Source: Levilactobacillus wangkuiensis (GTDB lineage Bacteria; Bacillota; Bacilli; Lactobacillales; Lactobacillaceae). From it: a DNA stretch of 64,000 nucleotides. This document shows, in pieces, positions 3,414 through 60,025 of the stretch. The translations under genes were made by a program, and so were the position numbers. A model generated the notes under the pieces. The model made no database searches. It saw only the letters and a list, made by a program, of their open reading frames with translations, and was not told where the DNA came from. Every line of letters begins with the position of its first letter. Position 1 is the first letter of the stretch. Location of the stretch: NCBI RefSeq assembly GCF_016861605.1, contig NZ_BOLM01000007.1, forward strand, positions 62,001-126,000. The letters are read 5' to 3'.

Positions 3414-3662
3414 GACTCTTTGAAATGAGACAGTTTTTGCTTCCGTTCCCGCCGGCGGATTCAAGGCGCCCTGCTGTGGGGACCGGTTCCAGCCGGTGGT
3501 GCGGGCTTCCACCTCGACTTGAAACCTCGCTGCAGTTCGCGAGTTTCCAAGGTCGTCCCGTGTTCTAGGTTGGGCAAGTTCTCCCAACCAAGAACACCGA
3601 CACAGCCGGTCACCTTGATCCGCCTCTGGTCACTCACACTGTCGGTCTCATTTCCAAGAGTT
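3414..3662 (-). repeat. Dispersed structured repeat, type A, copy A1
   Basis: About 250 nt in the reverse orientation. The inner stem pairs 3454-3478 (GGCGGATTCAAGG...) with 3601-3624 (...CACCTTGATCCGCC). The outer stem is GAAATGAGAC near 3422-3431 with GTCTCATTTC near 3645-3654, continued by CTCTT and AAGAG. This outer stem has no sequence similarity to those of other copies, yet pairs with itself. Three hairpins lie inside, including the GGTTGGGCAAG...CTCCCAACC loop. The short open frames it contains shift between copies, so it is not coding. Confidence 0.8.
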
Positions 3663-3791
3663 AAAGCCTAAATTGCCTGTACTTTTCCTGTCATCCGACT
3701 CTTGTGTATCCTTCCACAATCCAGCACCCCAAAAAAAGCTAGTAATTGGCAGGCATCGCAACATTACCAGGTCCGCCCAAATCAGCCGATA

Positions 3792-3950
3792 GGCCGGCAC
3801 CAATGGACTCAGCCGGGGGATTTTCTAAGTGTCCCACTTAGAAAATGGCGACTTTGAAACGTGCTCCCCAGCGGTTCAAAGCGAGTCTAAAGACCGCTCC
3901 TCAGGCTTCAGGCGTCCTACCCCCAGTATTCCAGTCCATTGGTGCCGGCC
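3792..3950 (+). repeat. Dispersed structured repeat, type B, divergent copy B1
   Basis: A perfect 18-bp terminal inverted repeat (GGCCGGCACCAATGGACT at 3792-3809 with its complement at 3933-3950) encloses a GGGGG/CCCCC stem. Inside are three hairpins: TTTTCTAAGTG/CACTTAGAAAA, CTTTGAA...TTCAAAG, and TCTAAAG...CTTCAGG. The layout equals that of copies B2 and B3, but the sequence is almost fully different except for the CTTTGA/TCAAAG hairpin. It is placed in the family by architecture and this shared hairpin. Confidence 0.65.
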
Positions 3951-4085
3951 GGCAAGGCGCTGCCAGTAACCAAACTCAAGTCTCTACCCAATCAGAACAC
4001 CATGTAAATCACTAGCAATTTGAAGGGAAAAATAGCATAATGGAAGCGGATAACTTAAAATCTTAAACGATGGGAGTCGAATGCT

Positions 4086-4262
4086 ATGAAGCACTTCACA
4101 AAAGGGTTCTTATTTGGCGTTGTTGCGACCGCTAGTGCCGTTGCCGGCGCAGTCTTTTCTTTCAAGAAGAAGGTCGTTCAACCAATCGAAGATCAAGAAG
4201 CTCGGTTCGAAGAAAACCGGAAGTTGGCTAACCGCAAGAGTCACGCCGCTCATCACAACTAA
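4086..4262 (+). CDS. DUF3042 family small membrane-associated protein
   Basis: A 58-residue protein: MKHFTKGFLFGVVATASAVA..., with one hydrophobic segment at residues 7-26, then KKK and an acidic/basic helix rich in E, R and K (QEARFEENRKLANRK). This is the layout of DUF3042, a small family common in lactobacilli with no known function. The start follows GGGAG by about 10 bases; an ATG five bases earlier meets a stop at once. It is followed by a strong bidirectional terminator. Confidence 0.8.
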   Translation: MKHFTKGFLFGVVATASAVAGAVFSFKKKVVQPIEDQEARFEENRKLANRKSHAAHHN

Positions 4263-4307
4263 GTTTTACTAAGACCAGTTACTTGGTCAACTTATCAGGG
4301 TAATTAA

Positions 4308-4350
4308 AAAAGTGTGTCACCGGAAAAAATCCGCGTGACACACTTTTATT
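4308..4350. terminator. Bidirectional rho-independent terminator
   Basis: AAAAGTGTGTCAC (4308-4320) pairs with GTGACACACTTTT (4335-4347); a CGG/CCG pair extends the stem. A-rich and T-rich flanks on either side allow it to end both the DUF3042 gene (plus) and the rhodanese operon (minus). Confidence 0.9.
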
Positions 4351-4354
4351 TTGC

Positions 4355-4765
4355 TTAATTTGTTTTCTTGGTCTTACCTTGCCAACGGGCGTAACCCGTT
4401 TTCAGAATCGAAATATCTTTGTAGCCTTCCTTGCCCAACATTAAGGCTGCCCGGGTACTCAATGCTTTCCCCTGGTCGTACAGGTAAACGGGCAAGTCAG
4501 CCCGGATACCCGTATGGTAAGCCTTAAACGTGGAATAAGGAATATTGCGGGCCCCTAAAATGTGGCCGGCATCAAAGTCTTTCTTTTCACGCAAATCAAT
4601 GACCTGAGCCTTACGCATGCCTTCTTGGAATGTGTCCTCGTCAATGACAGTGGCCACTTGGTTCCGGCGAACGATCGTAATCATTTGCCAAGCCGCCCAA
4701 GCGATGATCAAGACTAACAAAATGATGGTGTAGACCATCATTCCTGAAATTGCTGCAATTACCAA
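4355..4765 (-). CDS. Membrane-anchored rhodanese-like protein without catalytic Cys (YqhL type)
   Basis: A 136-residue protein with one membrane segment (about residues 8-32) followed by a single rhodanese fold: VIDLREKKDFDAGHILGARNIP is typical, here at about 55-76. At the loop where active sulfurtransferases have Cys (VVYC..G.RS) this protein has YLYDQGKALS, with Asp97 in place of Cys. It is therefore unlikely to transfer sulfur and may act as a binding or regulatory domain. The start is a TTG after AGGAAGGA. It follows the glucokinase gene with a 29-bp gap, in a cluster conserved with Bacillus. Confidence 0.88.
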   Translation of the reverse strand: MVIAAISGMMVYTIILLVLIIAWAAWQMITIVRRNQVATVIDEDTFQEGMRKAQVIDLREKKDFDAGHILGARNIPYSTFKAYHTGIRADLPVYLYDQGKALSTRAALMLGKEGYKDISILKTGYARWQGKTKKTN

Positions 4766-4794
4766 ACTAAATCGTCCTTCCTAAACCACTTGTT

Positions 4795-5766
4795 CTAGTT
4801 GCTCTTTTGGAACCGCAAAGCTAATGAAGCGGCACCGATAACCCCGGCGTCGTTCCCCAATTGTGCTAAGCGTAACTTCGTTGAGTCACGAACAGCTGGG
4901 AAGGCATTTTCTTGGAAATACCGCGTCGTTGGTTGTAATAAAGTGTTTCCGGCGTTGGAGACCCCACCACCGATGATGATGTTGGCTGGGTTCAAGATGT
5001 TGGCTACGTTAGCTAAGGCTAAGCCGAGGTAGAACGTTACCCGGTCAACAACTTGGTTGGCCAAGATATCACCGTTGTCGGCTAAGTAGAAGACCATCTT
5101 GGAGGTGACGCTTTCCTGGTTGTCTTCCATTTTCTTCAAACGAGACGTGCCCATGAAGTCCTTGGCCATGTCGGCTGCCACGTGAACGACCCCGGTTGCG
5201 GAAGCGTATTGTTCCAAGCAACCGCGCTTGCCACAGGTACACAGGTAACCGTTTGGTTGAACCGTGACGTGACCGAGTTCGCCGGCCCCACCGTTGATAC
5301 CGTGGAGCAAGTGACCGCCAGCGATGACCCCACCGCCGACACCAGTGCCTAAGGTAACGAAGACAACATCGCTGTCCTTTTCGCCGGCACCCTTCCAGTA
5401 TTCACCCAGTGAAGCGACGTTGGCGTCGTTGTCCAGGATGAATTGCAGGCCTAAGCCTTCTTGGATTTGGTCACGGACCTGTTGGCGCTTCTTCCAGTTC
5501 AGGTTGAAAGCTCCGATAACGGTTCCATTTTCAATATCGACAGAACCTGGCGTCCCCATCCCGATACCTAAGAAGTCGCTCTTACTGAATTCTGAGTTGA
5601 TGATATGTTGACTGATTGAATCAATGATGTTTGGAACGATGTGGCTACCTTCATCAGAGATGTCGGTTGGAATGCTCCACTTCGTCAGAATTTCTCCTGC
5701 AAGTGAGAGAAAAGCCATTTTCGTGGTGGTCCCACCTAAATCGATCCCAATTAAATTTCGTGCCAT
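4795..5766 (-). CDS. glcK: ROK-family glucokinase
   Basis: Phosphorylates glucose to glucose-6-phosphate with ATP. This 323-residue protein has the N-terminal phosphate loop IDLGGTTTK (8-16), the sugar-site region DNDANVAS (about 112-119), GHVTV with the zinc ligand His, and the CTCGKRGC zinc cluster (176-183) that defines ROK kinases. I placed the start at ATG 5766 because GGAGGG lies ten bases upstream; an in-frame ATG at 5784 would overlap yqgQ and lacks a good site. It lies in the rhomboid-yqgQ-glcK order found in Bacillus. Confidence 0.95.
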   Translation of the reverse strand: MARNLIGIDLGGTTTKMAFLSLAGEILTKWSIPTDISDEGSHIVPNIIDSISQHIINSEFSKSDFLGIGMGTPGSVDIENGTVIGAFNLNWKKRQQVRDQIQEGLGLQFILDNDANVASLGEYWKGAGEKDSDVVFVTLGTGVGGGVIAGGHLLHGINGGAGELGHVTVQPNGYLCTCGKRGCLEQYASATGVVHVAADMAKDFMGTSRLKKMEDNQESVTSKMVFYLADNGDILANQVVDRVTFYLGLALANVANILNPANIIIGGGVSNAGNTLLQPTTRYFQENAFPAVRDSTKLRLAQLGNDAGVIGAASLALRFQKSN

Positions 5767-5770
5767 AACG

Positions 5771-6001
5771 CTAAATCCCTCCAATGGATTGGTGATTATC
5801 TCTTGCTCGTTGTTCCTCTAAACGGTGTTCATGCGTGAGAACGATCTTTGCTTGGACAAAGGTTGGATCATCCACCACCCGTGCTCTTCGGAGGTGGTCC
5901 AATTCCAATGCCATCACTTCGATATCCCAAAGTCGTTTACCGACGTACACATAAATACCAAATTTTTTAAGTAGCTGCTGAACATCATATAACGTTTTCA
6001 T
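5771..6001 (-). CDS. yqgQ: YqgQ-like DUF910 protein
   Basis: A 76-residue acidic/basic helical protein beginning MKTLYDVQQLLKKFGIYVYV, typical of the YqgQ (DUF910) family, which has a small three-helix fold and no firmly known role. The start ATG 6001 follows GGAGG by ten bases; the longer frame to 6043 would run into the rhomboid stop and lacks a site. It ends four bases before the glucokinase start, so the two are probably translationally coupled. Confidence 0.88.
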   Translation of the reverse strand: MKTLYDVQQLLKKFGIYVYVGKRLWDIEVMALELDHLRRARVVDDPTFVQAKIVLTHEHRLEEQRARDNHQSIGGI

Positions 6002-6043
6002 TGTGCCACAACCTCCATGAAATTGCACGAGACTTTTCGACAA

Positions 6044-6724
6044 TTACTGGGCCATGCCGTGTAAATAAAGCCAGACCAAGCCACCAATTAACACGATAGT
6101 GGCGACGATTCTTTTAACTGGACTAACCTGACCAATTCGTGGCACGCCGACGGTATACGCTATCAGGAAGCCACTAGCCAAGCCACCCAGGTGACCCGCT
6201 AAATCAATCCCTGGCGTAAACAGATCAAAGGCAATGTTCATGACCACAAACGCCATGAACGTCCGGGCTAACTGCCGGATGCCCGGATTCTGCCAGAAGG
6301 ATTCTCCTAGCATCAGGAAGGCCCCAAACAGCCCAAAGATGGCCGTGCTGGCCCCCGCTGACAGGCTGTTAGAGAAGCAGAAGGACGCGACGTTCCCGCC
6401 GATACCGGCAATCAGGTACATCACGAGAAAACGTGTGTGCCCAAAAGCGGCTTCAATCTGCATCCCCACAAAGTACAGGGTAATCATGTTCATCAGGATA
6501 TGTGTAAACCCAATGTGGAGGAACATGGGGGTAAATAACCGCCACCACTCTCCCTGCTGAATCAGGGCATTGAGCTTCGCCCCAAAGGTAATCAGGACGT
6601 TCACGCTGGTACTACCACCGGCCAACGTCATGGCCAAAAAGACCAGGGCGTTGATCACAATCAAACCAATCGTCATGTAAGGCATCTGGTTTAACCGTTG
6701 TAACCGGTATTTAAAATTCGTCAC
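6044..6724 (-). CDS. gluP: Rhomboid intramembrane serine protease (GluP-like)
   Basis: A 226-residue polytopic protein with six to seven hydrophobic helices. It carries the rhomboid signature HxxxxHxxxN (H70, H75, N79), the nucleophile motif GASTAIFG with Ser126, and the general base His178 in AGHLGG. Rhomboids cut transmembrane segments within the lipid bilayer. Compared with B. subtilis YqgP/GluP it lacks the cytoplasmic N-terminal and C-terminal extensions, which is usual for lactobacilli. It starts with GTG after AAAGGAAG. It is the gene before yqgQ and glcK. Confidence 0.94.
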   Translation of the reverse strand: MTNFKYRLQRLNQMPYMTIGLIVINALVFLAMTLAGGSTSVNVLITFGAKLNALIQQGEWWRLFTPMFLHIGFTHILMNMITLYFVGMQIEAAFGHTRFLVMYLIAGIGGNVASFCFSNSLSAGASTAIFGLFGAFLMLGESFWQNPGIRQLARTFMAFVVMNIAFDLFTPGIDLAGHLGGLASGFLIAYTVGVPRIGQVSPVKRIVATIVLIGGLVWLYLHGMAQ

Positions 6725-6739
6725 CGCAAGGCTTCCTTT

Positions 6740-7291
6740 CTATTGGACGGGCGCTGCCAAAACAGCGTCCAATAAGACATCGAAGTCCTCAACTGGCCAA
6801 GTCGGCTGCTGCGCCTGTTGCGCCGGCAAAGCTAGTGCCACCTTGAACCCGTTTGTTCGGGGTAAATAACGGTCGTAATAACCGCCGCCAAAGCCTAACC
6901 GTTCACCGGTCGTGGCAAACCGCAGCCCCGGCACGATGATCAAATCAAATTCATCTGGCTCGATAATGGCACCGTTGACCGGTTCCTGCAAGCCAAACGA
7001 ACTGGTCGCAAACGTCGTCTGGTCGTCCACCACGTGAAAGGCCATTTGCCGGTGCGGTAAGGTGACCGGCACCGCAATGGTTTTCCCCGCGGCTCGAGCA
7101 CCGTCAATGATTGGCTGGGTCGCCAACTCAAAGTCCCCACTGATGGTCGTTGCAATACGCTTAGCGGCCTGCCAAGCTGGTAACGCAAATAGTTGCCGGT
7201 ACAAATCGGCCGACGCCACCTGACGTTGATCAGCGGGCATTGCGGTCAAAGCTTGAATCGTCTGTTGCCGTAACAAGGCTTTGGATTGCAT
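6740..7291 (-). CDS. 5-formyltetrahydrofolate cyclo-ligase
   Basis: Converts 5-formyl-THF to 5,10-methenyl-THF with ATP, returning the storage folate to one-carbon metabolism. This 183-residue protein has the ATP/folate motif LGFGGGYYDRYL (about 132-143), the PGLRF loop before it, and the N-terminal SKALLRQQ helix. The ATG at 7291 follows AAGGGGG. It sits between rpmG and the rhomboid gene as in the Bacillus yqgN-yqgP segment. Confidence 0.94.
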   Translation of the reverse strand: MQSKALLRQQTIQALTAMPADQRQVASADLYRQLFALPAWQAAKRIATTISGDFELATQPIIDGARAAGKTIAVPVTLPHRQMAFHVVDDQTTFATSSFGLQEPVNGAIIEPDEFDLIIVPGLRFATTGERLGFGGGYYDRYLPRTNGFKVALALPAQQAQQPTWPVEDFDVLLDAVLAAPVQ

Positions 7292-7350
7292 CGGTTTACC
7301 CCCTTGAGAGATTTTTTCAATAAAAAAAGGTGCGGACTCTCGCCCGTACC

Positions 7351-7500
7351 TTACTTAGTTTCACGATGCAAAGTTACTTTCCGGTCACGTGGGCAGTATT
7401 TCTTAAATTCAACCCGGTCCGGGTTATTACGCCGGTTCTTGCTGGATAAGTAATTGCGTTCGTGGCATTCCGTACATTCTAAAGTGATGTGTACACGCAT
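7351..7500 (-). CDS. rpmG: Ribosomal protein L33
   Basis: A 49-residue L33 with [10 protein letters not shown] and the C-terminal VTLHRETK. The start ATG 7500 follows GGGAGG. Zinc-type L33 has two Cys pairs; here C9 and C12 are present but the second pair reads CPRD (C36, D39), so one ligand is replaced. I cannot tell whether it binds zinc. A run of A/T-rich bases downstream (7305-7330) separates it from the cyclo-ligase gene. Confidence 0.95.
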
Positions 7501-7698
7501 TGTGGGTAACCTCCCAACTTGTTTAGAATTACAGGCTAGAGCCCTTAACTCGTAATATATTACCATTAATCGGCAGCAATTACCAGTGATAATCCTAAAT
7601 ATGTTAAGCAAAAATACTTAACAGCTGTAAAATCGCCGACACCGCGGGATTTTCGCCCGGAACACGATTTTTTCATTTTTTTGTTGCTGACCCACTCA

Positions 7699-9765: not shown

Positions 9766-9975
9766 AACAGCTCTGCTCCTTATTGTACAGCTACTATTCT
9801 ACCAAACTTCGTGGCCAGTCACTATCCCACTTCAGAAATTTAAACAAACTATGCTATTCTAGAGGCCGGGATGGCTGACGCCCAATTGGTATTCTAGCAT
9901 ACTGTGATTCTCCCAAAAGTGACCTGCTCCCCATTTTACCAAAAATAAATAAATTATGGCGGTTTTTCTCCTTTC

Positions 9976-10217
9976 AAAATATTTAAGTGACAATTGTGTT
10001 TGGGCTGGCCGTTCCCGGCGGCGGGCTCAAAACACTCTGCTGTGGAGAACGGCTCCAGCCTGAGGAGCGGTCTTCCGCCTCGCCTTGAAGCCTGGAAAAC
10101 CACCAGTCTCCAAGGTCGTCTCATGGTCTAGGCTGGGAAAGTACCCCAGCCAAGTCCATCGACACAGCCGAGCATTTTGGCCCGCCTCTGGTCACTCACA
10201 TTTTCCTTAAATATTCT
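9976..10217 (-). repeat. Dispersed structured repeat, type A, copy A2
   Basis: Reverse orientation. The inner stem pairs 10020-10044 (GGCGGGCTCAAAA...) with 10163-10186 (...TTTTGGCCCGCC). Relative to A1 both arms changed together: GGAT/ATCC became GGGC/GCCC, and CAAGG/CCTTG became CAAAA/TTTTG. The outer stem is AATATTTAAG (9978-9987) with CTTAAATATT (10206-10215), specific to this copy. Inside, GGCTGGG...CCCAGCC and the shared central hairpin are visible. Confidence 0.8.
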
Positions 10218-10560: not shown

Positions 10561-10820
10561 GCCGGCCCCCGGGCTGGTGAAAATAGAACGCGCGTGTCAG
10601 TGACCAGAGGTGGGTCAAGATGCCCGGCTGTGTCGATGGTCTTAGTTGGGTAATTTTCTCTACTTAGAGCATGGGGCAACCTTTGAGACCGATTTTTGGC
10701 TCAAAGTTGAGGTGAAAGCCCGCCTTCTGGCTGGAACCGACCCCACAGCAGGGCGGCTTGGGCCCACCGTCGGGAACGAACGGCACCGCGTTCCAATCCC
10801 ATTTTCACCATCCCGGAGGC
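10561..10820 (+). repeat. Dispersed structured repeat, type A, copy A3
   Basis: Forward orientation with both ends visible: GGGCTGGTGAAAAT near the start and ATTTTCACCATCCCGG at the end, extended by GAACGCG/CGCGTTC. The inner stem GGTGGGTCAAG.../...CTTGGGCCCACC keeps pairing through double changes relative to the other copies. The central hairpin CTTTGAGACCG...GGCTCAAAG is intact. Confidence 0.8.
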
Positions 10821-11070
10821 AAAAGTAACAACCGTTTAACCCATAACCAGTATTTTAGTTGAGTTCTGAAATATCTTTAAAAATATGACAATCCGGCCGC
10901 ACAGCTGGCCCAGTATAGTATGATAAGAACTGGTCAATCTTTGACCACACGTGGTCGCGTCACCTAACCCACCCGTTAGCCTGACCGTCACGCCAGCTTC
11001 GCCCTTAGGCTGAATCCACCGATTCACGCCGCAACATTAACAACTGCTTTTAAATTATTGAAAGATTGAG

Positions 11071-13713
11071 GTGGCTTCCTTGCAAGAAAAAAAACGACGT
11101 TGGACGCTTACACAACGTCAATCCACACTTTTGGGTGCGTTCTTAACGCCCTTTTTATTAATGACGGCCTATTTTATCTACCGTCAGATGGCCCCATTTG
11201 GCTCGAGTAGCCTCTTAACGGTCGACCTGGGTCAGCAGTACATCGACTTCTTTGCCTATCTACGGCGAGCCCTGTTGCACAATCCCAGCAGTATTTTCTA
11301 CTCCTTTGCCAATGGCTTAGGTGGCGAAATGCTGGGGACCTGGTCGTACTACCTGCTCAGTCCGCTGAACTGGCTATTACTGCTGTGTCCCGGTGCCTCG
11401 CTCACGACCGGCGTCTTCCTCCTGACCGTGATCAAATATGGGCTGGCCGGCCTGACCTTCGGCTGGTTACTGCTCAAGACGACCAACCAATCCGGTTTTA
11501 AACTGGTGACGTTGGCCACCGCCTACGCCTTGATGGGCTGGTCGATTGCCAACCAACTCAACATCATGTGGTTAGACGCGGCGTACCTGTTGCCGCTGAT
11601 TTTCTACGGCCTGTATCTATTGATGCACACCGGCAAGTGGCGCACCTACGTGGTCTGGCTAACGATTATGCTGGTCGTGAATTACTACATGGCGTACATG
11701 ATCTGTCTCTTCTTGATTTTGGCATTCGTTTGGTTTGCCGTTGATCAATTTACCAACTGGCGGCATTTCTGGGGTCAAACCGTTAAGTTTGCGCTGACCT
11801 CCGCCGCGAGTGGCCTGTTGGCGGCATTCGTCCTACTGCCAACCTGGTGGTCCCTGTCGCAAAGCAAGGCCCAGTACACGGTCACGACCTTCAAGTGGAA
11901 GTTTGAATTCTTTCCACCGAAGATGATTGCCAAATTCTTCATGGGCGCCTTCAACTTTGACCAAATGCCAGACGGGACTGCCAACCTCTTCATCGGTGCG
12001 TTGGCCTTGCTCGGAAGCATTTTCTTCTTCGCGGACAAACACATCAAGCTGCGCAGCCGCCTCACCGCCGGCATCATCACCCTCTTCTTGGCGCTGTCCC
12101 TTTGTGTGCAGCCCCTCGACCTGTTGTGGCACGCGGGCCAGTTCCCCGTTTGGTATCCGTACCGCTTCTCGTTTGTCGTGAGCTTCTGGTTGATCTGGTT
12201 AGCCGCGCAAACGCTGACGGACGATTTCGAACCCGGCTGGTTAGCCATTGCCATCGCCACGCTGATCATCGTGGTCGGCACCGCCTACGTGGCCTTGAAC
12301 CTCAAGTCCTTTAAGTTCTTACAAATGAATCAAGTGCTCCTCGGCCTGTTCTTTGCCGTCCTGGCCCTAGGCCTGACGACGCTGCCCGTCAAGCACCACT
12401 GGATTTACCCGCTGGCCTTTTTCGTCATCGGGATAACCGAGGTCTCGGCCAACGCCTTCATGTCGTTAAACAACATTAGCTACGTCTCTCAAGGCGAATA
12501 CGGCAACTACACCAACGAGCTCCAACGATTGGTCAACCGCGTGCAGAAGAAGGATCAGGGCGTCTACCGCATTGGCAAGACCTTCCTGCGAACCAAGGGC
12601 GATGCCTTTCAAACGGGTTACGCCGGCGGGGGCGTCTTCTCGTCCGTCCTGCCGAAAGCCACGCCGACCTTCTACGGCAACATTGGGAGTCCGGATGGCG
12701 ACGGCTTCGTCGAATACAGCAACGGAACGCTGGTCACCGATTCCCTGTTGAATATGAAATACTACTTCCAGCAAAAACAATTGTCCGGCGCTTTGAGTGG
12801 GACCAGCATGTTACCGGCATCCACCAACAAGGCCGACCTGGCCGATTACCAAGCCGTGGGTCAGGACCAATGGGCCACGACCTACCGCAACCAGTATGCC
12901 CTGCCGCTGGGCTATGCCGCTAGTCAACAGATTTTAACGTTGAAGAACAAGACGGCTGACCCGGCCCAGTACCAGTCCAATTGGCTGGCCGCGTTGACTG
13001 GCAAAACCACGGACCAGCACCTGTACACGGCCGAGAACTTTGACCAAGTGACGTTCCAAAACATCGCCCAACAGTCAAAAATCACTGGTGCCGTGTTACA
13101 ACGGAAAAACCTGTTGAAGCCCGCTAAGATTACGCTGACGTTTACCCCAACCACCAATGACGCCTACTACCTGACCTTTGGCTCAACGGTCAACTCGGAT
13201 AATGCAACGTTCATCCTGAATGGCAAAACGCTGGATCAGTACAAGATTTACCGGAATACGATTATGGTCAGTGCCGCCGACCATGCCAAGGGTAAGAAAC
13301 AAACGTTAACGATTCAACTGAAAAAGGGCTCGTTGTGGCTGGATAACTTCACGCTGTATCAACTGAATACGGCGAAGTTCCAACGCGCCGTCGCACAGCT
13401 GAAGACACAATCCTGGCACCTGACGAAACACAGCAGTCGCTACTTCCGTGGGACCATCACGACCAAGACGGCCGGTCAGGTTCTGAACACCTCCGTGCCG
13501 TACTCCACGGGTTGGCACGCCACCGTCAATGGCAAGCGCGTCAAGACGTACAAGACAGTCGGCATGTTCACTGCAGTTAAGCTGCCTAAGGGCCAGAGTA
13601 CCGTGACACTGTCCTACTGGCCACCGTTGTTAAATGCCGGGATTCTGGTTAGTCTGGTGACGTTGCTGGGGTTGACGGGCGGCTGGTACCTCACCCACCG
13701 TCGTCGCGGATAA
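11071..13713 (+). CDS. YfhO-family multi-pass membrane protein
   Basis: An 880-residue protein with about a dozen or more hydrophobic helices in the first 480 residues, then a large extracytoplasmic beta-rich domain (about 480-850) and a final membrane helix (LNAGILVSLVTLLGLTGGW) before RRR. The conserved N-terminal block with DLGQQYIDFFAYLR and NGLGGEM is typical of YfhO (PF09586), a GT-C-like group; B. subtilis and Listeria homologues are linked to glycosylation of lipoteichoic acid or other envelope polymers. The start is GTG 11071, or TTG 11080 with GAGGTGG just before it, which I find equally likely. A repeat begins four bases after the stop. Confidence 0.85.
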   Translation: MASLQEKKRRWTLTQRQSTLLGAFLTPFLLMTAYFIYRQMAPFGSSSLLTVDLGQQYIDFFAYLRRALLHNPSSIFYSFANGLGGEMLGTWSYYLLSPLNWLLLLCPGASLTTGVFLLTVIKYGLAGLTFGWLLLKTTNQSGFKLVTLATAYALMGWSIANQLNIMWLDAAYLLPLIFYGLYLLMHTGKWRTYVVWLTIMLVVNYYMAYMICLFLILAFVWFAVDQFTNWRHFWGQTVKFALTSAASGLLAAFVLLPTWWSLSQSKAQYTVTTFKWKFEFFPPKMIAKFFMGAFNFDQMPDGTANLFIGALALLGSIFFFADKHIKLRSRLTAGIITLFLALSLCVQPLDLLWHAGQFPVWYPYRFSFVVSFWLIWLAAQTLTDDFEPGWLAIAIATLIIVVGTAYVALNLKSFKFLQMNQVLLGLFFAVLALGLTTLPVKHHWIYPLAFFVIGITEVSANAFMSLNNISYVSQGEYGNYTNELQRLVNRVQKKDQGVYRIGKTFLRTKGDAFQTGYAGGGVFSSVLPKATPTFYGNIGSPDGDGFVEYSNGTLVTDSLLNMKYYFQQKQLSGALSGTSMLPASTNKADLADYQAVGQDQWATTYRNQYALPLGYAASQQILTLKNKTADPAQYQSNWLAALTGKTTDQHLYTAENFDQVTFQNIAQQSKITGAVLQRKNLLKPAKITLTFTPTTNDAYYLTFGSTVNSDNATFILNGKTLDQYKIYRNTIMVSAADHAKGKKQTLTIQLKKGSLWLDNFTLYQLNTAKFQRAVAQLKTQSWHLTKHSSRYFRGTITTKTAGQVLNTSVPYSTGWHATVNGKRVKTYKTVGMFTAVKLPKGQSTVTLSYWPPLLNAGILVSLVTLLGLTGGWYLTHRRRG

Positions 13714-13717
13714 ACTA

Positions 13718-13896
13718 CGCCTCCGGACCGGTGAAAATTGGGCCGTGACGCTGTGGGCGCACGTCTGAAGCCTGAGAAGCGGTCTTCAGACTTACTTTGA
13801 GCCGAAGACCACGTCTCAAAGATAGCAGTTGTCTAAGCGGTAAACCGCTAAGGCAACTCCCACGGCTGAGCCCATTTTCACCAGTCCTGCGGCTCA
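13718..13896 (-). repeat. Dispersed structured repeat, type B, copy B2
   Basis: Reverse orientation. The ends are CGCCTCCGGACCGGTGAAAA and TTTTCACCAGTCCTGCGGC, the same termini as type A copies. Hairpins inside: GTCTGAAG...CTTCAGAC, CTTTGAG...CTCAAAG, and GTTGTCTAAGCGGT...ACCGCTAAGGCAAC; GCTGTGGG/CCCACGGC forms the inner stem. It starts 4 bp after the YfhO stop codon, so it would form the 3' end of that mRNA. Confidence 0.8.
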
Positions 13897-14008
13897 CACT
13901 AGTTTAGCCCCAACGGACTGCTCGATTAATAAGCTCTATGTTGATTCGGTGAAGCACCTCTGACTAGTCGCAGCGAGTAACCGCACCAATTCAATCGACC
14001 TACTTAAG

Positions 14009-17307: not shown

Positions 17308-17700
17308 GTGCGGAGCGAGCCGATTAGGTCCTGAGCATTAACGCCGACTAAGTAATGACCCCGGGCTTGGGTCATTGCTTAGTCGGGGTTAAGCGCAGGG
17401 ACCTGGCTCGCGTAGCACGTTTCCGAGGCTGTAAGTTTCCGAATCTAAAAGCGAAAAACCTGTCAAACGACCTAAGTCAGTCTAAATCAACGACGTTATC
17501 CCCGAACTTGGGATATTTTCTTAGCCGGGTTAAGCGCAGGAGTCTGGCTCGCGTAGCAAGTTTCCGAGGCTGCAAGTTTCCGAATCTAAAAGCGAAAAAC
17601 CTGTCAAACGACCTAAGTCCGTCTAAACCAATAGCAATACCTCACCCCAGACTAGGAATATTTTCCTAGCCAAATTAAGTCCAGGTGTCCGCTTAGCTTA
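17308..17700. repeat. 141-bp tandem array with large hairpins
   Basis: Two near-identical units with period 141 bp (compare TTAAGCGCAGG at 17389 and 17530) and a decayed third (17675). The first unit begins with a long stem: 17308-17350 pairs with 17375-17418 (GTGC...GCGAGCC...GACTAAG with CTTAG..GGCTCGC..GCAC). Each unit has a different apical hairpin: GACCC/GGGTC, ATCCC/GGGAT, CTAGGAA/TTCCTAG. The shared part GTTTCCGAGGCTG...GACCTAAGTC is nearly unchanged. It fills the divergent space between mltG and the orphan gene at 17773. Confidence 0.85.
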
Positions 17701-18215: not shown

Positions 18216-18470
18216 GTCAGCCGCAGGGCTGGGAAAACTGGGCCGGTCGTGGAAGTGACCAGAGGCGCGCCAAGGTGACCGGCTGTGTCGATGACCTTGG
18301 CTGGGGTATTTTCCCAGCCTAGCCCATGGGACAACCTTTGAGACCGCTCTTTGGCTCAAAGTTGAGGTGGAAGCCCGATTCTCAGGCTGAACCGGCCCCA
18401 CAGCAGGGCGCCTTGAGCGCGCCGCCGGGAACGGACGCGACCAGGCCCAGTTTTCACCAGCCCGGAGGCG
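18216..18470 (+). repeat. Dispersed structured repeat, type A, copy A4
   Basis: Forward orientation, complete ends: CAGCCGCAGGGCTGGGAAAA and TTTTCACCAGCCCGGAGGCG. The inner stem reads GGCGCGCCAAGG.../...CCTTGAGCGCGCC; the GCGC step differs from other copies in both arms. Hairpins GGCTGGG...CCCAGCC and CTTTGAG...CTCAAAG are intact. Preceded by AAACTAGTGT, also found beside B2 and B3. Confidence 0.82.
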
Positions 18471-18491
18471 CAATACCACGTTTGACCGCGC

Positions 18492-23253: not shown

Positions 23254-23393
23254 AGAATGCTTCCTTTTCATTTAAAATTATGATTTTCAGTCTTCTTAAC
23301 CCTATATCTTACTTACTTTTCACCAAATTGCAACCATCTTGCTTGGATTTCGCCCGGGTTAAGCCTTTCTTTACCTTTATCCCCTTGTGTCAG

Positions 23394-23628
23394 GCCTGTA
23401 AAATTGGGTGCTGAAATTCCGTTCCCGGCGGCAGATTCAAGACGCCCAGCTGTGGGGAACGGTTCCAGCCGAAGGGCGGGCTTCCACCTCGCCTTTGAGC
23501 CTGAGAGGCGGTCTCAAAGGGCGTCCCGTGCTCTAAACTGGGAAAACCACTCAGTTAAGACCACCAACACAGCAGGTCATCTTGATCTGCCTCTGGTCAC
23601 TCACATTGGCCACGCCATTTTTACAGTT
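23394..23628 (-). repeat. Dispersed structured repeat, type A, copy A5
   Basis: Reverse orientation. The inner stem pairs 23430-23454 (GGCAGATTCAAGA...) with 23568-23591 (...TCTTGATCTGCC). Two pairs differ from most copies in both arms at once: G-C became A-T in GGCAGAT/ATCTGCC, and AAGG/CCTT became AAGA/TCTT. The outer stem is CTGTAAAATTGG with CCATTTTTACAG, a variant of the usual CTGGTGAAAATGG. Confidence 0.82.
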
Positions 23629-23911
23629 CTGGCGATGGTGTTCGGTGTTATCAATTGATTTAGATGTATCATTTTAAAATGTTTAAGCGGGTCAAAATAA
23701 GGCACTACCATTCAATTTAATATGCATTACTCAGGCACGACAATAGTGTATAGAAAACGAGGAGCCAGTATCATGTAGCTGGGAAAAGCTCAGCCAGACG
23801 TAAAAGTGCCCAGAGACGAACACTGGTACGGGAAACGTGACTGGCACTACAACTCATTCGCTAGAAAATCCTACTGACACGTCCACCAACAATCACAGGT
23901 TGAACGCGTGT

Positions 23912-24179
23912 CAGCCGCAGGGCTGGTAAAAACTGGACCAGCAAGGTCAGTGTCAGTGACCAGAGGCGGATCAAAGTGACCGGCTGTGTCGGTGGCCTTG
24001 GCTGAGGTACTTTCTCAGCCTAGCCCACGGGACAACCTTTGAGACCGCTTTTTGGCTCAAAGTTGAGGTGGAAGCCCGCCTCTCAGGCTGGAACCGACCC
24101 CATAGCCGGGCACTTTGAATCCGCCGTCGGAAACGAACCATAACGCGTACCAGGCCCATTTTTCACCAGCCCGGAGGCG
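23912..24179 (+). repeat. Dispersed structured repeat, type A, copy A6
   Basis: Forward orientation, complete ends (CAGCCGCAGGGCTGGTAAAA and TTTTTCACCAGCCCGGAGGC). The inner stem has GGCGGATCAAAG.../...CTTTGAATCCGCC. It carries two TCAAAGT words about 105 bp apart, the same words that flank the deletion in copy A7. Confidence 0.82.
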
Positions 24180-24203
24180 ATGACAACGACAAAGTTCAAC
24201 CCC

Positions 24204-32034: not shown

Positions 32035-32205
32035 GCTGAGCTGGTGAAAATGTGACTGAGCAGTCAGTGTTAGTGACCAGAGGCGGATCAAAGTCGAGGT
32101 GGAACCGCTTCTCAGGCTGGAATCGACCCCATAGCCGGGACCTTTGAATCCGCCGCCGGGAACGCCATGACACCCACAGCATCACGGTCTATTTTCAACC
32201 AAGAC
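32035..32205 (+). repeat. Dispersed structured repeat, type A, internally deleted copy A7
   Basis: About 170 nt. The 5' part (GAGCTGGTGAAAAT...GTGACCAGAGGCGGATCAAAG) and the 3' part (TCGAGGTGGAA...CCTTTGAATCCGCCGCCGGGAACG) are normal, but about 100 nt between the two TCAAAG words of a full copy are missing. The inner left arm and two hairpins are therefore lost. Confidence 0.8.
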
Positions 32206-32275
32206 GATAAATTTTCATCATCCGCCAACCCCAACCTCCATGTCACCGGCAAAGACTAACGGTCTAAACTAGTGT

Positions 32276-32452
32276 CAGCCGCAGGGCTGGTGAAAATGGG
32301 CTCAGCCGTGGGAGTTGCCTTAGCGGTTTACCGCTTAGGCAACTGCTGTCTTTGAGACTCGGTCTATGAGGCTCAAAGTAAGCCTGGAGACCGCCCTTCG
32401 GCTCCAGGCCGCGCCCACAGCGTCACGGCCCATTTTCACCAATCCGGAGGCG
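32276..32452 (+). repeat. Dispersed structured repeat, type B, copy B3
   Basis: Complete forward copy: CAGCCGCAGGGCTGGTGAAAATGGGC at the start in the form GGGCTGGTGAAAATGGGC, and GCCCATTTTCACCAATCC at the end. Hairpins: AGTTGCCTTAGCGGT/ACCGCTTAGGCAACT, CTTTGAG/CTCAAAG, and GCCTGGAG/CTCCAGGC. The last one is GTCTGAAG/CTTCAGAC in B2, with several paired changes. Confidence 0.85.
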
Positions 32453-32484
32453 CAAACCAGAACATTTTTTAGCCAGCTAATCCG

Positions 32485-35590: not shown

Positions 35591-35822
35591 AGCAAGGCCC
35601 CCTTTGTGTATTTATTGTTATTACATGATTAACTATATCCCGTTTAAGGTGTAATGTCAATAAATACATCTCCGATTTTAAAAAAAGCGGAGGCTCTATC
35701 TGAAATAATATATTAAATTTTATAAAAAGCACCCCACCGCCAAAAATTGGTTGTGAGATGCCTTAATGTATAGAACTAACTTGATAAGCATAAGATTCAA
35801 CGGTTACGGGCTAAACCTGTAT

Positions 35823-35837
35823 CACCAGCCCGGAGGC
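35823..35837 (+). repeat. Remnant end of the dispersed repeat
   Basis: CACCAGCCCGGAGGC is the 3' terminus of the repeat family with no body before it. The sequence just left (CATAAGATTCA...GGGCTAAACCTGT) resembles the 5' flank of copy A3 (CATAAGATTCA...GGACTAAACATGT), so an element seems to have been lost leaving flank joined to end. Confidence 0.55.
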
Positions 35838-35847
35838 AGTACAGCCA

Positions 35848-52139: not shown

Positions 52140-52174
52140 AATGATGATCTCCCTTATTGAAATTTGGGTAAATT

Positions 52175-52430: not shown

Positions 52431-52433
52431 ACT

Positions 52434-52462: not shown

Positions 52463-52519
52463 GGTTCCGCTGGAAAAAAATAAAAAAGGCAAGGCCACCG
52501 CCCTGCCTCAAAAAAATAT

Positions 52520-53446: not shown

Positions 53447-53449
53447 CGG

Positions 53450-54832: not shown

Positions 54833-54835
54833 GCG

Positions 54836-55354: not shown

Positions 55355-55983
55355 TATTGGTCACCTCGTTTTAAATGGTTACTCTTGCCAAATTTATTGG
55401 CGTCAAGCCATTTTACCACTTGTTGACGCGTTTGGGCAATCGTGCCCCCGTTGTCAATGACCACCGTGGCCTGGGCAATCTTCTGGTCGATGGGCCATTG
55501 CCGGTCCATCCGGGCCTGGGCATCGGCCACCGATAACCCATCACGGGCCATTAGCCGTTGCCGCTGGGTCGTGGCATCGGTCGCCACGACCATCACGTGA
55601 TCGACCAAGTGAATCAGGTAGCCAACCTCAAAGAACGTGGGCGCATCAACGACTACCACGGAAACCTGCTGCGCGCGATAATCCGCCAGTTGCCGCTGAA
55701 TCTCGGCTTTGATCAGTGGCGTGGTAATGGCCTCGAGGCGGGCCAGTTCTTCCGGATGGGTAAACACCAACTGGCCCAACTTTTTCCGGTCCAGCCCCTC
55801 TGCGGTCAGGTAGTCCGCCCCAAAGGTCGTGCCAATCTGTGCGAGACCGGTCGACCCCGGTGCGACCACCTGACGGGCGATGATATCGGCATCGATCACG
55901 GGCAGGTCGGCTGCTCGTAGCCAGGCGCTCACGGTTGATTTGCCGGTCGCAATGCCCCCGGTCAGTCCCCAGACTTCAGTCAT
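55354..55983 (-). CDS. coaE: Dephospho-CoA kinase
   Basis: Last step of coenzyme A synthesis. The 209-residue protein has a P-loop [10 protein letters not shown] (8-17), [10 protein letters not shown] (substrate region) and [11 protein letters not shown]. It overlaps the mutM end by 8 bp and nrdR by 1 bp, within the block polA-mutM-coaE-nrdR-dnaB-dnaI conserved in Firmicutes. Confidence 0.95.
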
Positions 55984-56836
55984 CGGTCAACGCCTCCAAT
56001 GCTTCTAAGGGCACGGGCTGACAGTGCGGACAGTAGTGCGTGCCGCGCTGAGCAACCTTGATCTTCACGATTTCCGCACCGCACCGCTCACAGGGTTCCC
56101 CCTCACGCCCGTAGACGTGCAGGTGATTTTGAAACTGCCCCGCCTCGCCAAAGGCCGTCGAGAAGGAATGCACGGTCGTCCCATGCCCCTTGATGGCCTG
56201 TGCCAGTTCGTCAATGATGTTGCGACGCAGTGTGATTAGCTGGTCGGTGCTCAGCTCATCGGCTGGGGTCAACGGATTGATTTTTGACAGCCATAAGACC
56301 TCATCCACGTAGATGTTACCCAGGCCCGCAATTTTAGACTGGTCCAGCAGGAAGGGTTTGACCACCTTATGGGACTTGCCAAAAATTCGTTGCATGTAGG
56401 CCAACGTCAACGTCTCATCCGTGGGTTCCGGTCCCAGTTTTCCGAGGGATGGCAAGGCTGCCGCCTCGTCTCCCGTTGGGACTAACCGCATCCGGCCAAA
56501 CTTACGGGTGTCGTTGTACCGCAGCTCCCGGCCATCCGTCAGATAGAAGATGACGTGGGTGTGTTTGATCACGGGGCTCCCCTGGGGTTGGACATCGTAT
56601 TTTCCTTCCATCCGCAGGTGTGACACCATGGTCAAGTCGCCACTGAACCGAAACAACAGGTACTTGCCCCGCCGGTCGATACGTTCAATTTTTCTGCCAA
56701 TCAATTCCGCGGTAAAGACTTCCGCGTCAGGGGTGACCATCTTGCGGTAGAACACGTCGACATGGTCGATGGTTGCGCCCGCCACCAGGCTGATCAGCCC
56801 ACGCCGAACCGTTTCAACTTCAGGTAATTCTGGCAT
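55976..56836 (-). CDS. mutM: Formamidopyrimidine-DNA glycosylase (MutM/Fpg)
   Basis: Removes oxidised purines such as 8-oxoguanine and cuts the abasic site. The 286-residue protein has the N-terminal catalytic Pro in PELPEVETVRRGL, the helix-two-turn-helix IAGLGNIYVDEVLW, and a C-terminal zinc finger with CERCGAEI and CPHC. ATG 56836 follows AAAGGAGAG and puts the required Pro at position 2; the longer frame to 56875 is ruled out by this. Confidence 0.96.
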   Translation of the reverse strand: MPELPEVETVRRGLISLVAGATIDHVDVFYRKMVTPDAEVFTAELIGRKIERIDRRGKYLLFRFSGDLTMVSHLRMEGKYDVQPQGSPVIKHTHVIFYLTDGRELRYNDTRKFGRMRLVPTGDEAAALPSLGKLGPEPTDETLTLAYMQRIFGKSHKVVKPFLLDQSKIAGLGNIYVDEVLWLSKINPLTPADELSTDQLITLRRNIIDELAQAIKGHGTTVHSFSTAFGEAGQFQNHLHVYGREGEPCERCGAEIVKIKVAQRGTHYCPHCQPVPLEALEALTDD

Positions 56837-56856
56837 AACCGTCTCTCCTTTTGCCG

Positions 56857-59517
56857 CTACTTGGCGTTGTACCAAGTCGGTCCGAAATGACTTTCCACCT
56901 TCAACGGGATCTCGAGGTCAACGGCAGAATCCATGACACTTGGCACCAGTTTCTCTAGCGTTTCAATCTCATCGGCTGGTGCCTCAAAGATCAGTTCATC
57001 GTGCACTTGTAAGAGCATGGTGGCCTGTAAGTCCTTGACCGCGTCTTCCATCCGAATCATGGCAATCTTAATGATATCCGCCGCGCTCCCTTGGATTGGC
57101 GTGTTCATCGCCGTCCGTTCAGCGAAGGACCGTTGGTTAAAGTTACGGGAGTTGATGTCTGGCAAATACCGCCGACGATGGGCAATCGTTTCCACGAAGC
57201 CCTGTTCCTTAGCCTGCTGCACCATCCGGTCCATGTAGGACTTAACGCCAGGATATTCTTCGAAGTAGGTGTCGATAAAGTTCTTGGCCTGCTTCCGGGT
57301 GATGCCAATGTTTTGCGACAAGCCAAAGTCACTGATGCCGTAAACGATTCCGAAGTTGACCGCTTTGGCCTGCCGCCGAATGTTTGGCGTGACCTCTTCG
57401 TCGGGCCCCATCTTAAAGATTCGCCGGGCGGTCGCCGCGTGAATGTCTTCACCCTCACGGAAGGCTTCCTGCATGTTGGCGTCATGACTCATATGCGCCA
57501 GGACCCGCAGTTCAATTTGTGAGTAGTCAGACGAGAAAATCTGCCAGCCCGGATGACGCGGAACAAAGGCCTTCCGAATCGCACGACCCTCTTCGTTTCG
57601 GACCGGAATATTTTGCAAGTTCGGGTCCACGGAGGACAGCCGCCCAGTCTGCGTCAACGTCTGCAGGTAACGGGTGTGCACCTTGTGGTCGTCGGGATGA
57701 ATCACCTTGAGCAGACCCTCGACGTAGGTGGACTGAATCTTAGAAATCTTGCGGTATTTCAAAATATTCTCCGCAATTGGCGCTTCTGCGGCGAGCTTTT
57801 CCAGGACCCCAACCGCCGTCGAGTATCCCGTCTTGGTCTTTTTAATCGGTGGCAAACCCATCTTTTCAAACAGAATGTGGCCCAGTTGCTTAGGTGAACC
57901 AATGTTAAATTCTTCACCGGCCTCGTTGTAAATGGTCTGTTCGATTTCAGCGAGTTGTTCGGTAAACTTGCTGCCCATGGCTTCCAGTTCACTGGCTTCA
58001 ACCGTGATCCCGGCAATTTCCATGCGGGCCAGGACAAAGGCCATTGGCAGTTCGATCTCGCGATAGAGTTGTGTCTGTTCATTGGCGTCCAAATCTTTAA
58101 TCAGCTCGGGACGGAGATTCTCGATAGCCCGCGCCTTACGTGCCAGGTGAGAGAAGAAGTCGACGTCATCGGCCGGAATGGCTTCCTTGGCACCCTTACC
58201 GTAGACATCCTCATCCGTCGCCACCTGGTGATAGCCGTGTTCCATGGCCACACGACCCAGGTCGTTGCTGTTGTCATAGGTATTCAACAGGTACGAGGCA
58301 ATCAGCAGGTCACAGTCGACCCCGGCCAGCGTAATGTTCAACCGGTTCAAGGCCACGTAGGTCCGCTTGGCGTCAAAGACCTGCTTAGCCACGTCTGCGG
58401 ATTCCAGCAATCCCTTGAGTGGGGCCTGTTGCAGGAGGCTCACGTCACGGCTCACGTACCAGTGGTCTTCATGACCAATCACAAACCCCGCCATTTCGGC
58501 CAAATGGTAGTTGTCACCCAGCATTTCCAGATAGAATTCACACCCGTCGGCAAAGGTTGGCAAGGTGTTCAGGTTATCGGCCTTCAACACCGTGAAATCA
58601 ACGTCCTTCAGACCTGGTGTCGCCGTTGGGGTTTCCCCATCGATCTGCATTTTGCTCAGGAATTGGTTAAAGTTCATCCGTTGATAGAATTCGACCAATT
58701 TTTCTTGGTCATCGCCTTCATAAACTAGGTTTTCCACTTGCTTTTCAACGGGGGCATCCCGCAGAATCGTCGCCAATTTCTTAGATAGCAAGGCTTCTTC
58801 GTGGTCGGCCACCAGGTGTTCCTTTAACTTTTTCGCAGTGATTTCGTCAATATGGTCATAGAGGTTCTCAATGCTGCCGTATTTACCAATCAGGTCAACG
58901 GCACGCTTAGGCCCCACGCCGGTCACCCCAGGATAGTTGTCGGAGTTGTCCCCTTGTAACCCTTTAATATCAATGATCTGTTCGGGCGTCACACCCATTT
59001 TCTCTTTGACGTAGGCCGGCGTGTAGTGCTCAATGTCACTGACCCCTTTTCTAGAAATGGAGACCGTGGTGTGGTCATCGGCCAGCTGGGTCAAATCGCG
59101 GTCCCCGGTGACGATGGTCGTGGTGAAGCCGTTGTCCTCGGCTTGCTTAGCCAGGGTCCCGATGATGTCATCGGCTTCGTAGTCGGGCAGCTCGTAAGTC
59201 TGAATGCCCCGAGCGGCCAACAATTCCTTCACATAGGGAAATTGTTCGGAAAGTTCCGGTGCCGTCTTGGCCCGGCCACCCTTGTAATCGTCATACATTC
59301 TGGTCCGAAATGTCTTCTTGCCGGCATCAAACGCCACTAACGCGTGGGTTGGTTTGACCGTATCCAGCATGGTTTCCAACATCGTATTGAACCCGTAAAT
59401 GGCGTTGGTGTGCAGGCCTTCGCTGTTGGTGAACTTGCCTAAAGCCGTGTACAACGCGAAGAAGGCCTTAAACGTGACACTGTTACCATCAATTAATAAT
59501 AATCGTTTTTCCGCCAT
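56857..59517 (-). CDS. polA: DNA polymerase I
   Basis: Gap filling and primer removal. The 886-residue protein has a 5'-3' exonuclease domain (about 1-290, LLLIDGNSVTFKAFFAL, GDRDLTQL), a decayed 3'-5' exonuclease domain (about 300-470) and the polymerase domain (motif A SSDYSQIELRVLAHMS, motif B RRQAKAVNFGIVYG, motif C LLQVHDELIFEAP). Where proofreading enzymes have DxE, this one reads CEFYLEML, so proofreading is probably lost, as in Bacillus PolA. It heads the block with mutM 20 bp downstream. Confidence 0.97.
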   Translation of the reverse strand: MAEKRLLLIDGNSVTFKAFFALYTALGKFTNSEGLHTNAIYGFNTMLETMLDTVKPTHALVAFDAGKKTFRTRMYDDYKGGRAKTAPELSEQFPYVKELLAARGIQTYELPDYEADDIIGTLAKQAEDNGFTTTIVTGDRDLTQLADDHTTVSISRKGVSDIEHYTPAYVKEKMGVTPEQIIDIKGLQGDNSDNYPGVTGVGPKRAVDLIGKYGSIENLYDHIDEITAKKLKEHLVADHEEALLSKKLATILRDAPVEKQVENLVYEGDDQEKLVEFYQRMNFNQFLSKMQIDGETPTATPGLKDVDFTVLKADNLNTLPTFADGCEFYLEMLGDNYHLAEMAGFVIGHEDHWYVSRDVSLLQQAPLKGLLESADVAKQVFDAKRTYVALNRLNITLAGVDCDLLIASYLLNTYDNSNDLGRVAMEHGYHQVATDEDVYGKGAKEAIPADDVDFFSHLARKARAIENLRPELIKDLDANEQTQLYREIELPMAFVLARMEIAGITVEASELEAMGSKFTEQLAEIEQTIYNEAGEEFNIGSPKQLGHILFEKMGLPPIKKTKTGYSTAVGVLEKLAAEAPIAENILKYRKISKIQSTYVEGLLKVIHPDDHKVHTRYLQTLTQTGRLSSVDPNLQNIPVRNEEGRAIRKAFVPRHPGWQIFSSDYSQIELRVLAHMSHDANMQEAFREGEDIHAATARRIFKMGPDEEVTPNIRRQAKAVNFGIVYGISDFGLSQNIGITRKQAKNFIDTYFEEYPGVKSYMDRMVQQAKEQGFVETIAHRRRYLPDINSRNFNQRSFAERTAMNTPIQGSAADIIKIAMIRMEDAVKDLQATMLLQVHDELIFEAPADEIETLEKLVPSVMDSAVDLEIPLKVESHFGPTWYNAK

Positions 59518-59715
59518 GTTACGCTCCTTTCGAGCAACGGTCAGCCGCGCTCGAGTATTCTGTGTCTATTTTACCAAACATTAGGGCAAACCCGAAACGA
59601 AATCTAGCGAAACTGGTTGGTCGGAGCCGATTACTTTCAGACAAACTGAATTCTGAATCAAGTCATCGTAAGTAATCGCCTATCCATCTCTGAGCTAACC
59701 AAAATTAACCTAGTA

Positions 59716-59758
59716 TCGAGGTGGGACCTGTCTCTCAGGTTGAAACCATTCCCACAAG
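59716..59758 (+). repeat. Fragment of type A repeat
   Basis: CGAGGTGGGACCTGTCTCTC followed by AGGTTGAAACCATTCCCACA matches the third hairpin region of full copies (GAGGTGGAAGCCCGCCTCTC, AGGCTGGAACCGACCCCACA). Nothing of the rest is present. Confidence 0.55.
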
Positions 59759-59794
59759 AAATTGCATAAGTCCACCTCAAAACAACCACGAAGA

Positions 59795-60025
59795 GAGTGG
59801 AAATGCGTGGTCCATGTCAGTGATCAGAGGCGGATCAAGGTGCCCGGCTGTGTCGATGGTCTTGGCTGGAGTTCTTTTCCAGCCTAGTCCATGGGACATC
59901 CTTTGAGACCGCCCCTCAGGCTCAAAGTTGAGGTGAAAGCCCGCCTTATGGCTGGAACCGCCCCCACAGCAGGGCACCTTGAATCCGCCGCCGGGAACGA
60001 AAACAAGTCCACCCCATTTTCACGA
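59795..60025 (+). repeat. Dispersed structured repeat, type A, copy A8
   Basis: The clearest inner stem: 59829-59852 (GGCGGATCAAGGTGCCCGGC...) pairs with 59965-59989 (...GGGCACCTTGAATCCGCC) over about 24 positions with a single mismatch and one bulged base. The outer stem is GTGGAAATGCGTGG with CCACCCCATTTTCAC. Hairpins GGCTGGA/TCCAGCC and CTTTGAG/CTCAAAG are intact. Confidence 0.85.

Follow-up and report, generated by a model that had tools for sequence, protein, structure and literature searches.

How a family of folded repeats came to occupy the gaps between genes is the question raised by a 64,000-nt stretch (the window) of the 3.14 Mb genome of Levilactobacillus wangkuiensis, whose YfhO gene has L. 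mulengensis and L. lanxiensis as its closest named relatives (98% each). The initial annotation of the window had listed at least eight copies of type A, three of type B, and two fragments of such a repeat. Reading of the sequence and searches with R1, a covariance model built from 30 copies, located every one of them. We interpret the repeats, with a probability of roughly 0.45, as an old non-autonomous mobile element of Lactobacillaceae, largely quiet today, which would have spread in the form of one folded strand, either ssDNA or RNA. The copies in the window are listed below; their outer limits are approximate.

3413..3665, minus strand: A1, full type A copy (core 3444-3634; R1 score 178 bits)
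3784..3957, plus strand: B1, type B copy, in a −/+ pair with A1 (38 bits)
9972..10217, minus strand: A2, full type A copy (core 10010-10196; 178 bits)
10561..10821, plus strand: A3, full type A copy, in a −/+ pair with A2 (core 10599-10778; 191 bits)
13718..13904, minus strand: B2, type B copy (59 bits)
18216..18475, plus strand: A4, full type A copy (core 18254-18433; 211 bits)
23390..23635, minus strand: A5, full type A copy (core 23420-23601; 188 bits)
23908..24180, plus strand: A6, full type A copy, in a −/+ pair with A5 (core 23955-24135; 215 bits; fold z −6.5)
32035..32215, plus strand: A7, internally deleted type A copy (core 32072-32164, 93 nt; 42 bits)
32276..32453, plus strand: B3, type B copy in tandem with A7 (46 bits; fold z −6.4)
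35807..35838, plus strand: remnant, 5' leader fused straight to the 3' end (identified from its sequence by visual comparison with 58 copies' ends)
59716..59756, plus strand: fragment containing type A hairpin 3 (identified from its sequence)
59790..60024, plus strand: A8, full type A copy (core 59819-59999; 203 bits)

Type B copies score below type A copies on R1: the seven full type A copies in the window reach 178-215 bits, and the three type B copies 38-59 bits, with A7 at 42 bits. The element at 35823, previously described simply as a fragment, is indeed present and was corrected to a leader fused to the 3' end; we read it as a probable remnant of an internal deletion. B2 starts no more than 5 nt past the end of a YfhO-family gene (11071-13713, Pfam YfhO). 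A1 has a counterpart at its site, on the same strand, in both L. mulengensis and L. lanxiensis; B1 is missing from both. A2 is orthologous in the relatives, with a diverged interior. At the site of A4, a type B copy is found in L. lanxiensis and an internally deleted copy in L. mulengensis, and two type A copies stand at the site of the 59716 fragment in L. lanxiensis. The window also contains a direct repeat of 132 nt (17359-17490 and 17500-17631, 86% identical) within a small ORF, 17355-17669.

When R1 was run on the whole genome, at least 150 matches were obtained (all of the best 150 candidates scored), each with E ≤ 1.1e-36, which shows that the repeat is more than a chance resemblance in folding. 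A sample of 571,092 bp, consisting of contigs C7 and C2 complete plus 120 kb of C3, contains 151 elements after removal of overlapping reverse-strand shadows. This number, which takes in low-scoring type B copies, is a lower bound, with the best 150 of 188 matches aligned and the other cut-off set at E ≤ 1e-7; by proportion, it corresponds to approximately 830 elements in the genome. The description of a dispersed, structured family is borne out. At about 180 nt per core, the 151 cores account for nearly 5% of the sampled DNA and about a quarter of its 113 kb of gene-gap DNA. Genes were defined with our own ORF script, whose start positions are rough; results for stop-facing elements do not depend on starts. 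A gene-gap location was recorded for 144 of the 145 elements then known, a figure partly produced by construction, since the ORF picker dropped ORFs that overlapped elements heavily. The mean pairwise identity of 73 type A cores (copies above 110 bits in 455 kb) is 0.80. Conservation thus extends to the core sequence itself, contrary to the earlier suggestion that pairing, not sequence, is kept. The median identity to the nearest paralogue is 0.90, as after a past spread.

Among 79 syntenic loci, R1 matches were confined to Levilactobacillus-like loci, and no match was found at 50 syntenic loci from other genera. An order-wide search with stricter filters gave matches in 16 of 395 genomes, from 6 of 80 genera, all in one family; a single weak match (E = 8.8e-6) in a genome of another family came from a separate search. 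Matches were also seen in Furfurilactobacillus milii and five further genera (F. milii may itself fall in one of the five), and the copies there fold alike. Among the best 150 candidates scored, F. milii has 115 matches and L. brevis CD0817 has 145; L. brevis ATCC 14869 has 2 and another Levilactobacillus genome, G021, has none. The YfhO genes of L. brevis ATCC 14869 and CD0817 stand at 81% and 88%, respectively, relative to that of the window. Together with the difference in match number, this indicates that CD0817, though labelled L. brevis, is probably another species than ATCC 14869. In a genome of one further genus (G283:C4:201778-202226), three R1 matches lie close together, possibly as a small array.

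Rfam covariance models gave no match at gathering score in the window and none at E ≤ 1 for nine element loci from several genera, in line with the initial statement that no named family has this layout. In blastn searches, which are insensitive to distant versions, A6 matched nothing among plasmids and phages, and B3 matched nothing among plasmids. No description of this repeat family was found in the open-access articles searched, and the available portion of a survey of stem-loop sequences (PMC2267715) mentions Lactobacillus once, for L. johnsonii.

The type A core, 180-191 nt in the full copies of the window, consists of an inner stem and three hairpins. Hairpin 1 carries a single U.U mismatch in most folded copies (as read from the fold list), hairpin 2 has an A that is bulged or mismatched, and a GGA/GGA loop is found in hairpin 3. 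The core is enclosed by an outer stem whose 3x3 loop is GNA/GNA, beyond which a leader, GGGYTAAACCAGTGTNA, pairs with a 3' end resembling GTTTAACCC. Between the outer GCC and GGC, the unit measures ~170-270 nt. We folded 43 copies, 10 from the window and 33 from six genera, five of them (L034-L038) without known strand; GNA/GNA accounts for 32 of the 40 3x3 internal loops, and 21 of the 43 copies contain at least one such loop. Relative to shuffled sequences, the folds of A6 and B3 are better by 6.5 and 6.4 sd, respectively. For the 10 window copies, the sense strand is the more stable in seven with RNA parameters and in nine with DNA parameters, mostly by a slight margin, and we place no weight on this comparison.

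Outer ends around GCCGCAGG...CCGGAGGC are common to many copies of types A and B, and 58 copies were retrieved with them. Such ends are what would be expected of an ordinary MITE with long inverted ends, moved by a DDE transposase, but the ends of A1, A2, and B1 are wholly different. The polarity and the inverted gene-end copies described below also disagree with a DDE-dependent MITE, which we consider very unlikely.

Paired changes in the inner arms of type A, pointed out in the initial annotation, were seen as described. In an alignment of 30 copies, two-sided changes were present in 24 of 55 pairs, compared with a mean of 10.4 in shuffled alignments and 0 to 4 in slid controls, and 98.5% of cells pair, compared with 92.6% (shuffled) and 26-45% (slid). 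By one of the five measures applied to these copies, the number of further pair types, the alignment was not above shuffles (39 vs. 37.7; 159 of 500). In one alignment, some minus-strand rows were shifted by a few bases, leaving gaps at the ends. A larger set of 83 copies was evaluated with our own R-scape-like script (not R-scape itself), using 60 simulations that keep the tree and the changes per branch as the null. Five of 57 pairs were significant at E < 0.05 over all column pairs, and no pair outside the structure was; by arithmetic, restricting the test to the 57 pairs raises the number to 17. The covariation anticipated earlier is, therefore, above phylogenetic expectation by this tree-keeping null.

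The fold also has features of one defined strand. On the strand that reads 5' AGTGACC...GGAACG 3', G.U pairs outnumber A.C pairs family-wide by 112 to 29 (the count of 112 omits one majority U.G pair, and four pairs contribute 66 of it), and GNA/GNA loops exist on this strand only. The proposal that a folded RNA or single-stranded DNA is the functional form is strengthened to this extent. One way to account for a covarying fold with conserved internal loops and a one-strand G.U excess is a structural or regulatory RNA of the host, with each copy transcribed and working in cis, whether as a leader, to protect a 3' end, or to terminate transcription from both sides. Stem rates within single loci fit such a role: where orthologs share at least 90% identity, the rate of change is 3.5-4.2% in core stems, half of that at unpaired sites (7.6-8.8%). 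In the same orthologs, G.U pairs number 50 and A.C pairs 32, summed over three non-independent comparisons.

Same-locus comparisons of the window's genome with L. lanxiensis, based on 24 ortholog pairs (4 of 28 were omitted owing to a type switch or unsure orthology), gave 54 two-sided changes that kept pairing and 12 that broke it, where 12.5 doubles are expected if the sides change independently, along with 91 one-sided breaks; G.U pairs showed no clear excess over A.C pairs (44 vs. 36). The rates and the two-sided and one-sided counts indicate that core stems at single loci are only partly constrained. The picture within loci is mixed, and some change accompanies replacement of the interior. 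This constraint and the excess of two-sided changes are unlike simple neutral decay and, as such, count against the mobile-element reading, as does the lack of a clear G.U excess at single loci. The excess over independence and the absence of a clear G.U surplus within loci would fit palindromes that are kept perfect by mutation, namely by template switching during replication (quasi-palindrome correction), with arms extended outward and no selected function. Such a process, however, would erase the internal loops too, and GNA/GNA loops persist across genera; it also leaves the spread of a shared core unexplained. We return to it below, where the outer arms are considered.

The arrangement of elements relative to genes follows simple rules. 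Neighbors within one gene gap of the sampled 571 kb are oriented −/+ in 33 cases, ++ in 13, −− in two, and +/− in none; in F. milii, neighbors less than 600 bp apart are −/+ in 32 cases, ++ in one, and +/− in none. Over the two genera, all 65 inverted pairs thus have the same arrangement. The DNA between −/+ mates is not conserved, either in Levilactobacillus or in F. milii. A REPIN-like unit with its own centre was tried as a candidate and rejected: the 40 centre matches viewed of 163 listed for Levilactobacillus were read as element ends, and in F. milii 20 centres scored 20.0 vs. 19.4 for shuffled ones.

Elements mostly point their 3' end at whichever gene is nearer (133 of 149), irrespective of that gene's direction. 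The rule also applies to elements alone in their gap (62 of the 149), 55 of which obey it; single elements between convergent genes, where the gap is bordered by stop codons only, do so in 17 of 17 cases, and those between divergent genes in 9 of 12 (not significant). In gaps between genes of the same direction, elements proximal to the stop are antisense in 43 of 47 cases, and elements proximal to the start are sense in 34 of 39. Polarity is also seen in the L. brevis CD0817 syntenic region (15 of 16, from 17 elements, one lacking a gene on both sides), where some sites may be common by descent, in other Levilactobacillus (10 of 10), and in F. milii (25 of 30 loci tested, from 115 matches); in other genera it is weaker (12 of 18, not significant). 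The polarity thus follows the border between gene and gap rather than transcription. Events that place the gene on the opposite side may harm it and so be lost, which is one possible reason for this polarity.

These data bear directly on a host RNA. The sense orientation of start-proximal elements agrees with it, whereas the antisense orientation of stop-proximal ones means that no single mRNA role fits, and same-direction gaps show no overall sense bias (38 sense, 46 antisense), which argues against an mRNA element. The scarcity of matches in L. brevis ATCC 14869 and their absence from G021, both of the same genus, also argue against such an RNA, as does the exchange of types A and B at one site. 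We regard a host RNA of this kind as unlikely.

Many elements are flanked by further complementary arms. Arms above the 95% level of shuffled sequences lie within 40 nt of the core in 88 of 151 elements (shared ends included), while at 100-150 nt the number, 8 of 151, is at chance level. Significant copy-specific arms were recorded for 26 of the 151 elements tested, and in 15 of the 26 the gene-side arm reaches more than 9 nt into the facing ORF. Using coding DNA alone, we looked in the 5' flank of stop-facing elements for an inverted copy of the last 100 nt of the gene. Such a copy was found above the 99% level in 6 of 62 elements (0.6 expected) and above the 95% level in 16 of 62 (3.1 expected). 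A direct copy exceeded the 99% level in one of 62, and for start-facing elements an inverted copy did so in one of 25 (0.25 expected). In F. milii, outer inverted arms are weak (4-5 of 30).

Between species, the 5' arm diverges by 9-10% and the gene-side arm by 3-5%. In 18 comparisons, five two-sided changes kept the pairing of the outermost arms, compared with 3.5 expected, so that maintained pairing is not supported, and neither is the initial view that outer stems preserve pairing rather than sequence for these arms, which diverge without compensation. The outer arms have the appearance of fossils left from the origin of the copy. Inverted copies that reach into coding DNA are as expected under template switching, but the same comparisons reveal no correction of the outer arms between species, and we regard this purely mutational origin as distinctly unlikely.

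The sites are old: in 118 comparisons of orthologous regions, an element of matching type and strand is present in 104, the type or the strand differs in 10, and four are empty. The comparisons of site retention, arms, and stem rates use the same C2 elements against two species, and their counts are not independent. Two of the four empty sites are deletions, the element being present in a third species; the other two are not polarisable, one having two genomes only and the other being B1 of the window. No clean new insertion was observed among the 118 comparisons, and no nested insertion, from which exact ends could be read, was found. With no clean empty site, no direct target duplication is definable at any site. 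A DDE-dependent MITE would not be expected to show gene-facing polarity or inverted copies of gene ends. At four orthologous sites (C7 80254 and 130185; C2 57673 and 150951), types A and B were exchanged while the locus-specific outer arms were kept. At C2 260629/260805 and 265998/266171, there are tandem same-strand copies with a common left flank, the latter with the start of a type A followed by a type B copy. At one site in L. brevis CD0817, there are three elements and a 5' arm that, by eye, is like the end of the facing gene, and the window's genome has 16 bp there.

Candidate machinery was sought by protein family. The Y1 transposase PF01797, matched in 17 of 24 Levilactobacillus genomes, does not follow copy number: no match was found in the window's genome, it is absent from the many-copy genomes G002, G016, and G022, and it is present in G021, which has no copies. 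The reverse transcriptase PF00078 is present in 6 of 24 Levilactobacillus genomes, including two matches in the window's own, and is absent from G001, G002, G018, G019, and G023, each with at least 67 R1 matches. Both a Y1 transposase and a reverse transcriptase or retron were rejected as the mover, since their distribution does not fit copy number. A partial search for an autonomous copy, by end spacing alone in the 571 kb, identified none; 15 left ends had no near right end, and six of these had a right end within 6 kb.

Known interspersed repeats offer several points of comparison. REPs of ~20-60 bp are described in the available part of PMC3116915 as extragenic palindromic units that occur by the hundreds and form inverted doublets. 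Hairpins in ssDNA or mRNA are predicted for REPs and REPINs, and compensatory changes are noted (PMC3116915, PMC3733652, as far as available); in the accessible portion of the latter, some REP dimers (GTAG and CGTC REP families) sit within longer palindromes. To the extent covered by these sources, the present family is alike in all four respects: extragenic palindromic units by the hundreds, inverted doublets, hairpins, and compensatory changes. A REP/REPIN-like system moved as inverted doublets by a Y1 (RAYT/IS200-type) transposase would match the many intergenic palindromic units, and the G.U asymmetry is compatible with an ssDNA substrate. However, the copies do not track the Y1 transposase, as the genomes named above demonstrate, and the unit, at ~170-270 nt, is multi-branched and well above the size given for REPs in the cited part of PMC3116915. 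Judged against the same partial sources, the family also differs in having a single inverted arrangement, mates that can differ in type, non-conserved spacers, and a polarity that follows the nearer gene. Movement of this kind is, in our estimation, highly improbable.

Rearrangements in human and yeast genomes include fold-back inverted duplications (PMC3907307, PMC7467729, each as far as available), in which flanking DNA is likewise copied inverted beside a hairpin; as described there, these are rearrangements and not a repeated element.

In our preferred reading, that of an old mobile element, we infer mobility, a folded intermediate, and snap-back copying as follows. The folded core, with its inner stem, three hairpins in type A, and conserved G.A-rich internal loops, would be recognized by mobilising machinery, which would explain both the covariation between copies and the strand specificity. 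The 3' end of the element would be joined to DNA at the border of a gene. In some cases, the new strand may then snap back on its palindromic end and copy the border, which would leave the gene's end duplicated in inverted form on the intergenic (5') side. The bottom strand of an inverted-arm site reads gene flank, element, and gene flank again, the order to be expected if a 3' end at the border were extended over the element, folded back, and copied the border. Two borders of one gap, each taking an element, would give a −/+ pair. That this amounts to a new class of bacterial mobile element, whose folded strand attaches through its 3' end at a gene border, whose insertion by fold-back synthesis leaves an inverted gene-end copy, and whose polarity depends on where coding DNA meets non-coding DNA rather than on transcription, is a tentative idea that we think somewhat unlikely to be correct.

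MITEs, ERIC, BOX, and RUP are interspersed, non-coding, structured, chromosomal repeats. The present family shares these properties but has no terminal repeat common to all copies and no visible target duplication; a subset carries inverted ends of neighboring genes, and the fold is shared across genera with little shared sequence. Integron attC sites and the ssDNA sites of IS200/IS605-type elements are strand-specific folded DNA recognized by shape. The likeness lies in the strand-specific fold; unlike them, the elements show no Y1 association, are dispersed in gene gaps rather than in arrays, and have a three-hairpin core. The −/+ rule, the 3' end facing the nearer gene, and an outermost stem that is, in some copies, an inverted copy of the gene's end are new findings. 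We class them as interspersed structured repeats, and there is a real chance that they insert by a new mechanism.

The elements shape many of the gene gaps of a food-relevant genus. From their structure, their polarity, and the fossils in their flanks, it could become clear how a small non-autonomous bacterial repeat inserts, and the gene-facing rule can be checked in any sequenced genome that contains them.
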